Shown here: one piece after another, positions 33,465 through 35,309 of the stretch
Position numbering within the stretch: the first letter of the stretch is position 1
Layout of the letters: the number at the start of each line of letters is the position of its first letter
Source of the DNA: Clostridium sp. 'deep sea'
GTDB taxonomy: Bacteria; Bacillota; UBA994; PWPR01
Length of the DNA stretch: 64,000 bases
Assembly: GCF_014931565.1 (NCBI RefSeq)
Contig: NZ_CP063353.1
Location: 2,790,001 to 2,854,000 of the forward strand
Direction: 5' to 3'
The notes under the pieces: generated by a model
Told to the model about the DNA's origin: nothing
Databases searched by the model: none
Seen by the model: the letters and a program-made list of their open reading frames with translations, nothing else
Translations under genes and position numbers: made by a program

Positions 33465-35309
33465 TTAAAATGGGAGGTCATCATCATTTAAGCTTGTTGC
33501 AGCGGCTTCATTTTCTTCGGTGTAATCCCAAGGTTTTAATATACCATTCTGTAAAAAGGTAGATTCACTTCCGCATATGCTGCAGTATCTTTCATCACCT
33601 GCGAGTGGTTTTCCACAATCGAATTTGTTGGTACATCTATTAACTATATGCTTACCACATATTTGGCAGAATTCACCTTCGATATTAGTTTTTTCATTAC
33701 CACAGACTGGGCAAATAACTGCTTTGCTATTTTCATTTAGCCCTATTCCATTGTATATCATTTCATTTACCTCCTCATTGTAGTCTCTATACAGACTACT
33801 TCCTCCACATACAGGGCAGAAATTAAGTACCTCTTTACAAGATACAAAACCGCAAATTTGGCATTTTTTTATATTTTTCTTTATGTAAACAAACTCTCTA
33901 AATTGATTTTGCTGTTTATGAAGACAAATATCACTAATCCAGTAATTATCAGATCTTCGGAATCGTAATCGATTTAGAGAGGCTTGATAAGACATATGGA
34001 AAATGTCTTGAACATCATGAGTGTTTAATTCCAATTCGTTTGCGATAACTATTGGTGCAAGGGCGTTTCTGGAAAATGAATTAGCTTCTTTCTCCAGCAC
34101 TCTGTATTTTTTAGTAGGTATTCCTCCTCTTGTTAATAGCGCGATATCAAAATCAGCTAAATGATTTAAGATTATATGTCCAATTTCATGCATTAATGTG
34201 AATAGAATTCTACACTGTGGTTTCGTATCATTATAAGCTATTGAGTAATTTCTACCATTAAATATCGTATAACCATCTTCTGAACCAAAAGCTTCTGTTA
34301 TATCATGTATAGTTACATGATATTTTTCTGCATACTGCGAATAGCTACACACATCCCAATTGTTATCTTCTATAATCTTAAATGGGTCCAATGGAAACCT
34401 GTAAACATGTTCTTTAGCGAGAAAATCTGTTGCTTTTTCTAGAACATAGTAGTACCTAGCGCTTGTCGGTATTTGCTGCAAAATTGTTACTAAATTCTTT
34501 AATAGATCTCGCTGGCTAGGATTTAAGTTCTTCATACCACGTGCGATAGCTCGAATTTGGGGGTCGAAATCATCGCTTTGGTTTTTTATATCTGGTGAAT
34601 CATCCCAGATTACATTAGAGAACCCTGCAATTTCCCAAACGTCAATATTGAACACTTTAGCTATTTTTCTAAGATCACTCATTTTTGGGGGCTGTTTATC
34701 AGATTCTATACGATTAAGTAATTTGATGCTAATCCCAGCTTTTTTAGCAAGTTCCTCTTTACTCATATTTTTAGCATCTCTTGTTGCAATTATAAATTGC
34801 CCAGGACTTGTATCAAGATATTGATTATTTTCTTTTATCATATCTTCATGAACAGCTCTTTTATAGGCTTCATATTTATTTACATCCCCATCAAAATGTG
34901 AAGGTATTTGTTCATCATATAATCCGTATTTATCTAAAAACTCATAATAGGACAATCCAAGAATTTCTTCGAATTTATTTATTACATCTATCCTTACTTC
35001 ATTTTCTTCTGATTCATATTGTAAGAGTTCTTTTGAGGATATTTCAAGGAAATTTGCGAGTTCCTTTATGCTTAGTCCTTGACTTTCTCGTTCTTCTTTC
35101 AAAGCATGTCCTACTCGATCTCCCTCAATACCTAAGAGTGTGTCCACTGACACACTAAAATAATTGGATATTTTAAGAAGCATTTCATAACTTGGCTCTC
35201 TGGTTCCGTTTTCCCAATTGCAAATTGTATTCTGGGCTACGTTGAATATTTCCCCTAACTTCTTTTGGCTCAGACGAGCACCTTCTCTTAAAATCTTTAA
35301 TTGTATCAT
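33465..35309 (-). CDS. three-HTH, ImmA/IrrE-type protease, zinc-ribbon regulator
   Basis: 614 residues in an unusual order: XRE helix-turn-helix 1 (about 1-60), HTH 2 (about 64-120, weak), HTH 3 (about 165-225), an ImmA/IrrE-like metalloprotease domain with HEIGH near residue 375 and a downstream Glu (EKEANSFSRN), three zinc ribbons (CQICG/CPVCG, CPVCG/CQICG, and C-x5-C/CSICG, about 475-590), then an acidic tail ending DDDLPF, the exact tip of SSB in Bacillus. In ordinary phages repressor and anti-repressor protease are separate genes. ATG at 35309 follows AGAGGTGG. Probably the lysogeny repressor. The SSB-like tip suggests contact with repair proteins, which is inference. Confidence 0.78.
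   Translation of the reverse strand: MIQLKILREGARLSQKKLGEIFNVAQNTICNWENGTREPSYEMLLKISNYFSVSVDTLLGIEGDRVGHALKEERESQGLSIKELANFLEISSKELLQYESEENEVRIDVINKFEEILGLSYYEFLDKYGLYDEQIPSHFDGDVNKYEAYKRAVHEDMIKENNQYLDTSPGQFIIATRDAKNMSKEELAKKAGISIKLLNRIESDKQPPKMSDLRKIAKVFNIDVWEIAGFSNVIWDDSPDIKNQSDDFDPQIRAIARGMKNLNPSQRDLLKNLVTILQQIPTSARYYYVLEKATDFLAKEHVYRFPLDPFKIIEDNNWDVCSYSQYAEKYHVTIHDITEAFGSEDGYTIFNGRNYSIAYNDTKPQCRILFTLMHEIGHIILNHLADFDIALLTRGGIPTKKYRVLEKEANSFSRNALAPIVIANELELNTHDVQDIFHMSYQASLNRLRFRRSDNYWISDICLHKQQNQFREFVYIKKNIKKCQICGFVSCKEVLNFCPVCGGSSLYRDYNEEVNEMIYNGIGLNENSKAVICPVCGNEKTNIEGEFCQICGKHIVNRCTNKFDCGKPLAGDERYCSICGSESTFLQNGILKPWDYTEENEAAATSLNDDDLPF

Follow-up and report, generated by a model that had tools for sequence, protein, structure and literature searches.

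Results

The fused gene and its phage setting

The window, a stretch of 64,000 nucleotides from the genome of Clostridium sp. 'deep sea', contains a gene whose 614-residue product combines a repressor, a metallopeptidase, a set of zinc ribbons and an SSB-like tail (Table 1). The limits assigned to this gene by a first-pass annotation stand, and its strand is corrected: the frame opens with an ATG at 35309 and reads along the minus strand, the plus-strand frame being full of stops. The inventory drawn up at that stage – three XRE helix-turn-helices (HTHs), an HExxH protease, three zinc ribbons and a DDDLPF end in one protein – is borne out by Pfam and by conserved alignment columns. HTH_3 is found in three stretches (E 2.5e-34) and Peptidase_M78 (PF06114) at residues 335-433, with 31.3 bits against a cut-off of 22; H374, E375 and H378 are invariant over 82 aligned rows. 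Pfam matches to zinc ribbons are weak, and the three ribbons are confirmed because their Cys pairs (483/486 with 498/501, 533/536 with 548/551 and 559/565 with 576/579) are conserved over 81 relatives. The protein terminates in SLNDDDLPF. Among the Pfam families listed for it there is neither an OB-fold SSB domain (PF00436) nor the S24 peptidase domain of the self-cleaving LexA and CI repressors. A single open frame runs from the repressor part to the peptidase part with no stop between them, and no obvious ribosome site precedes the latter within the gene. Close relatives of the whole protein were absent from the genus searched, no further relative was present among the 15 genomes of the class, and querying viral contigs with the entire protein returned no close relative.

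Table 1. Features of the fused gene, its switch region and the surrounding prophage. Positions are those of the window unless marked C1.
Feature	Position	Strand	Basis
Entire gene: ImmR-type repressor fused to ImmA-type metallopeptidase, zinc ribbons, SSB-like tail, 614 aa	33465..35309	-	ORF, Pfam, ImmR profile, model
XRE HTH 1, residues 4-62	35124..35300	-	Pfam HTH_3; ImmR profile, 51 bits
XRE HTH 2, residues 66-133	34911..35114	-	Pfam HTH_3; ImmR profile, 28 bits
XRE HTH 3 with ImmR-type C-terminal segment DPQIRAIARGMKNLNPSQRDLLKNL, residues 170-279	34473..34802	-	ImmR profile, 74 bits
M78 (ImmA/IrrE/PprI/CapP) peptidase domain, residues 283-453	33951..34463	-	PF06114; model pLDDT >95; CapP/PprI fold
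HEIGH (HExxH), residues 374-378	34176-34190	-	conserved in alignment
Three four-Cys zinc ribbons, residues 483-580	33570..33863	-	conserved Cys columns; model pLDDT ~95
Tail, residues 595-614, low confidence and probably disordered, ending NDDDLPF	33468..33527	-	ORF, model
Tip DDDLPF	33468-33485	-	six residues identical to host SSB end
Operator-like repeat copy ATCACAAATAGGGAT	35335..35349		
Operator-like repeat copy AAAATCCCATAAAGGGATTGA, over -35 of rightward promoter-like site	35361..35381
Operator-like repeat copy AATATCTCATTGTGGGATTGA, over end of -10	35402..35422
Promoter-like site, lytic side, TTGACC-17-TAATAT	35378..35406	+
Divergent Cro-like XRE protein, 59 aa	35460..35639	+
Bro-N antirepressor, first larger lytic-side gene	35685..36437	+
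Tyrosine integrase, 20 bp downstream of fused gene	32236..33444	-
CpaF/TadA-like ATPase gene	31045-32232
14-bp core, left end of prophage	32128-32141
14-bp core, right end of prophage	C1:2858696-2858709
15-bp repeat, left copy	32162-32176
Enc34-type ssDNA-binding protein	39650-40207

The operator-like repeats overlie divergent promoter-like sites between the fused gene and the Cro-like gene, and phage replication genes come after the Bro-N antirepressor. No separate repressor gene is seen at this switch locus, which makes the 614-residue protein the likely repressor. We take it to be the lysogeny switch of a prophage of about 36.6 kb.

The prophage itself sits inside the gene for a CpaF/TadA-like ATPase. 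The 14-bp core ATGTGTATGATGTC is present at both of its ends, the right-hand copy lying about 4.7 kb past the end of the window, and behind that copy the C-terminal part of the ATPase (MCMMSGTKLSEELLMRL...) resumes, followed by Tad-like genes; a pilus gene is probably disrupted in the lysogen. Just inside both ends (the second copy about 4.6 kb past the window end) lies a 15-bp repeat, TTGTAATTACAACGT, whose core is palindromic and which is perhaps an arm site of the integrase.

A repressor joined to its protease

In tailed-phage relatives the C-terminal half of the protein is a separate product of about 340-470 residues encoded directly behind a repressor gene. An upstream ORF is present at 108 of 117 loci, mostly overlapping the protease gene, and 73 of the 75 examined are HTH_3 (XRE) repressors. 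An ImmR profile built from 75 upstream repressors of relatives matches the 614-residue protein three times (Table 1), the third match spanning both an HTH and the conserved post-HTH segment DPQIRAIARGMKNLNPSQRDLLKNL. The MpaR antirepressor of Listeria cuts its repressors at a mapped site between TIAA and HIDxxxxEExxxxILAYIE (PMC6872733), a stretch that corresponds to residues ~252-275 here, with the predicted cleavage region falling near residues 255-258. The match of this segment, taken with the MpaR site, leads us to view the protein as the products of an ImmR-ImmA operon in a single chain, plus two additional HTHs: judged by its sequence, residues 1-279 (the HTHs and the ImmR C-terminal segment) constitute a repressor to which an ImmA-type peptidase is fused.

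The fusion is genuine, though rare. The only other one found, L127 of Paenibacillus silviterrae, lacks the tip, and the same genome carries a near-identical module (L126) in which repressor and protease are separate ORFs, a pairing that indicates how easily an in-frame fusion arises. The earlier suggestion that repressor and protease are one molecule thus holds for the protein in the window and fails as a general design: relatives keep two genes, and what is new belongs to the protease family as a whole. We accordingly rejected the fusion as the key novelty; one-chain HTH-M78 regulators are in any case already known in MtPrpR/RamB (PMC6765138). The acidic ends of the upstream repressors (DEDDDI) were also considered as SSB-like tips and discarded, since they have no Pro-Phe and run into the start of the gene that follows. 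At L316/L324, L079, L090 and L095 the zinc-ribbon part occupies a separate ORF downstream of the HExxH ORF, and in several of these the second, ribbon-bearing ORF carries the PF end.

Peptidase fold and ribbon array

The AlphaFold model of the protein has high confidence through most of the stretch from residue 280 to 600, where block means mainly exceed 95, and is poor at the first HTHs and in the tail. The peptidase fold is closest to that of CapP (7t5t; Z 14.9 over 141 residues), which is also the closest solved structure by sequence (E 3.8e-15), and PprI (8sln), including ssDNA-bound PprI, scores Z 11.8. ssDNA activates PprI directly (PMC10904395), and stimulation of CapP by ssDNA is described, as cited in PMC10233336. 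The four-Cys ribbons stand at the position of the C-terminal GAF-like domain of IrrE/PprI and have no close solved fold listed: the array gave nothing above Z 2.7 among solved folds and no Foldseek match at E 0.001.

The SSB-type tip recurs across the protease family

The family was sampled as 119 ORFs with peptidase and ribbons, taken from viral contigs and genomes. Scan patterns were drawn from the peptidase domain, counts were made with a profile trimmed of the tail, and clustering at 50% core identity gave 54 clusters. A [DE]x0-3[LIVMF]PF tip is present in 26 of these and a PF end in 29, as against a PF end in 10 of 1491 neighbouring ORFs, these 10 including several DUF669-like ssDNA-binding proteins as well as the host SSB; among short M78 proteins without ribbons the tip occurs in 0 of 27 clusters. 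Apart from the fused gene, no ORF in the window has an SSB-type end. Of 398 genomes surveyed in the phylum, 12 gave strong matches, and seven ribbon-bearing ORFs, the window's among them, end in a tip.

The tip is encoded with all four Pro codons, both Phe codons, many of the Leu, Ile and Val codons and all three stops, and it stays while the linkers that connect it to the ribbons diverge between relatives. It is therefore the amino acids of the tip that are kept. Several tip-bearing relatives go further and copy the longer Bacillota SSB tail (DPF...PIxISDDDLPF), for example DPFASNNTPIYISEDELPF: over 48 linkers, DPF was observed in 8 and an xISDDDLPF-type end in 7, where 0.17 would be expected for each.

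Viral proteins ending in DDDLPF-TAA (at least 78 scanned) belong largely to known ssDNA-binding families, with at least 19 SSB, at least 18 gp32, at least 9 DUF3127 and at least 5 DUF669 members, counts that may overlap. Small phage proteins with the same end and no clear family (L188, L216, L231, L265 and others) may be unrecognised ssDNA-binding proteins, and the DDDLPF end looks usable as a search tag for phage SSBs. One primase-helicase-like phage protein that is not an SSB, a 597-residue open frame (L181 6137-7930), ends RVTGELPF.

A docking role for the tip had been thought vulnerable to homologues with the same domains and no tip, and such homologues make up about half of the M78-plus-ribbon family. 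On a 104-row tree the tip label changes 28 times, 22 of these changes being forced by supported branches, and clusters only slightly more than shuffled labels do. The tip is thus not needed everywhere, and in many phages must be dispensable or replaceable. Because chance should not often produce a five-residue end that also matches the host, we read it as an old feature with frequent losses and occasional regains. The same patchy occurrence and rapid turnover might instead mean that the tip is an accident, a degradation signal or a nucleotide by-product – of the start region of the next gene, for example – with no SSB-related role. Against this stand the frequency of the PF end (>50% of clusters against <1% in the background), the varied codons and stops behind constant amino acids, the persistence of the tip beyond diverging linkers, and the match to the host's own SSB set out below; the reading is already disfavoured, and we give it scarcely any credence.

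Protease tails follow the SSB of their own host

The housekeeping SSB of the window genome, encoded beside bS6, ends EVEDDDLPF. Because DDDLPF is the commonest SSB end, this agreement is uninformative and proves little alone. Across 42 genomes the protease tail was compared with the SSB tail of the same genome. Protease tails resemble the SSB tail of their own host more than those of other hosts (p ~0.0002), a test in which hosts are few and in which phages and hosts are treated without correction for shared descent, which could add to the effect. Over the last 8 residues the mean BLOSUM score is 21.75 for the own host and 16.07 after shuffling (p 0.00008; housekeeping SSBs, taken as those encoded beside bS6, n=20 tip-type); leaving out the strongest case, L128, gives 21.58 against 18.56 (p 0.0015; range 0.0015-0.0054). 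With strict tips only (n=17), p is 0.0005 for the last 6 residues and 0.012 for the last 10. The tip set of 21 proteins tolerates up to three residues after PF and so admits L116 and L128, but the host match still holds in strict sets without these two. As a control, 21 tipless members show no match to their own host (p 0.23, 0.41 and 0.64).

Individual pairs make the pattern plain. In Hungatella (L116) the SSB ends in GFMNIPDGVDDELPFN and the protease in FMSLPDTLDSEDELLPFN, both closing with LPFN, and at L128 the two ends are NFDDVPFLKE and AWDGVPFLST, respectively; SSB residues beyond PF occur in only 3 of the 42 hosts, and both protease tips with such residues belong to these. Protease and SSB share EDELPF at L114, DDNLPF at L120 and EVPF at L117. 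At L392, found after the first tests, the protease ends NTISFNPDDIPF and the host SSB SEISFNEDDIPF, with ISFNxDDIPF in both.

At residues identical between protease tail and host SSB the codons are the same in only 35 of 85 cases, which speaks for long-term matching at the protein level and not for a fresh copy of ssb; a recent capture of the 3' end of ssb was rejected on this ground. A phage-encoded SSB as the source of the tail was rejected here as well: the Enc34-type ssDNA-binding protein of the prophage has an acidic end, GQDDDDDLL, without the Pro-Phe of the SSB tip. The proposal that DDDLPF is an SSB docking tip has therefore gained ground, in that the end recurs in the family, extends into a longer SSB tail and follows the host's own SSB.

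Tip-bearing tails are also acidic: a net 4.0 of their last 20 residues are acidic, as compared with 1.4 in tails without a tip. This would suit a tail that needs no host partner and folds back onto the protein's own ssDNA-binding surface, on the ribbons or the peptidase, until ssDNA displaces it: the tails of SSB, gp32 and gp2.5 behave in this way, and several unrelated families of phage ssDNA-binding proteins have an equal end. Such autoinhibition, though, would require acidity only and not a terminal Pro-Phe, and it gives the tail no reason to follow that of the host SSB, down to the residues after PF. Nor do the models dock the tail, and we regard this explanation as distinctly unlikely. 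Two models looked at for docking of the tip within the molecule both leave the tail unplaced, a result that by itself neither supports nor excludes such docking.

Discussion

Our data suggest that imitation of host SSB is how the phage detects DNA damage. We assign a probability of about 0.6 to the reading that the 614-residue protein is a prophage switch whose protease would be tied to SSB-coated ssDNA through host-matched mimicry of the SSB tail. In the lysogen the HTHs would hold the operators. As ssDNA builds up, the peptidase would be switched on, in the manner of its ssDNA-stimulated relatives PprI and CapP, and would cut the conserved segment near residues 255-258, either in cis or in a neighbouring molecule. 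The cut would part the DNA-binding portion from the rest and free the lytic promoter. The SSB-tail mimic, for its part, may place the protease in the network of SSB-tail contacts – the pockets of the RecO, PriA, RecG, RecQ and RecJ class, or the OB fold of SSB itself – where it could meet ssDNA even though SSB covers it. We favour recruitment of this kind because SSB hides ssDNA, so that a protease in need of ssDNA gains by joining the SSB network; and host-by-host matching is what one would expect of a tail that must fit the SSB-tail pockets of its host.

Recruitment to SSB partners might also serve a different end, namely the cutting or blocking of host repair or replication proteins, or of the repressors of other prophages, during lytic growth. 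There is precedent in Listeria MpaR, which acts in trans on the repressors of other prophages (PMC6872733). Yet a protease that adjoins or is fused to a repressor in which the cleavage segment is kept points to that repressor as its substrate, and a protein made at repressor level would hardly outcompete abundant SSB; we consider a different end very unlikely. The tail might, alternatively, restrain the protease: a scarce host protein that binds SSB tails would hold it inactive by its tail until accumulating SSB-ssDNA tails titrate that partner off it, whereupon the protease, now released, cuts the repressor. Restraint and titration would explain the mimicking tail and its match to the host no less well than recruitment, and would make the amount of SSB-ssDNA the signal itself. 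They require, however, that binding inhibit the protease and that the partner be rare enough for titration, and SSB is already abundant and tailed before damage occurs. We think titration unlikely, and return to recruitment.

ImmA-type proteases differ in their dealings with RecA, some needing it and at least one being restrained by it (PMC12637031). The latter case is a pneumococcal prophage with ImmAR-type regulators that responds to damage without RecA, and for which activation by ssDNA or another ssDNA-bound protein has been proposed (PMC12637031). A host-matched SSB tail offers a specific and testable answer to the question of how ImmA-type proteases learn of DNA damage. In its broadest form the SSB-recruitment reading, on which we are evenly divided, is that prophage switches of a widespread class respond to SSB-coated ssDNA and not only to RecA filaments: an ImmA-type protease with a host-adapted SSB tail would enter the SSB interactome and be triggered there, sensor, protease and repressor being condensed, in the present case, into one self-cutting protein. 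A phage regulator that mimics a central hub of its host is an instance of molecular mimicry, and damage sensing of this kind is predicted to limit the hosts in which a prophage can be induced. The protease family, its pairing with repressors and SSB tails are each known singly; in the open-access literature we found no earlier report of a phage antirepressor protease with a host-matched SSB tail, or of the one-chain version.

Among known systems, ImmR-ImmA of ICEBs1 and related phages and ICEs likewise sets an XRE repressor and an M78 HExxH protease beside an integrase and a divergent lytic promoter, and its repressor is likewise inactivated, in response to damage, by a cut after the HTH. There, however, the genes are separate, whereas here three HTHs, repressor and protease form one chain; and the short M78 proteins that we sampled have neither ribbons nor SSB tip (0/27), in contrast to the zinc ribbons and host-SSB tail described above. 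PprI/IrrE-DdrO of Deinococcus shares the M78 fold (Z 11-12), and ssDNA stimulates cleavage of its XRE repressor (PMC10904395), but PprI/IrrE has a C-terminal GAF-like domain where zinc ribbons stand here, and the system governs a chromosomal repair regulon, with no SSB tail reported, and not a prophage. CapP-CapH of CBASS, too, pairs an ssDNA-stimulated protease with an XRE repressor and provides the closest solved structure by sequence and fold; it comprises two proteins, belongs to a defence system and has no reported SSB tail. MtPrpR/RamB resembles our protein in carrying an HTH and an M78-like fold (Z ~10.7) in one chain, but HExxH, intact here, is not conserved in MtPrpR (PMC6765138), and these are metabolic activators with Fe-S and CoA sites and neither ribbons nor SSB tail. 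MpaR of the Listeria monocin, with its CI-like repressors, is a phage-type M78 antirepressor with a mapped cut in the conserved post-HTH segment, as predicted for the fused protein, although it is a separate protein that acts across prophages. Bacterial SSB (SsbA), finally, has an OB fold that the 614-residue protein lacks, and the latter is not an SSB; what the two have in common is the acidic Pro-Phe end, which in several relatives of the protease grows into the longer SSB tail, with the variants of individual hosts copied.
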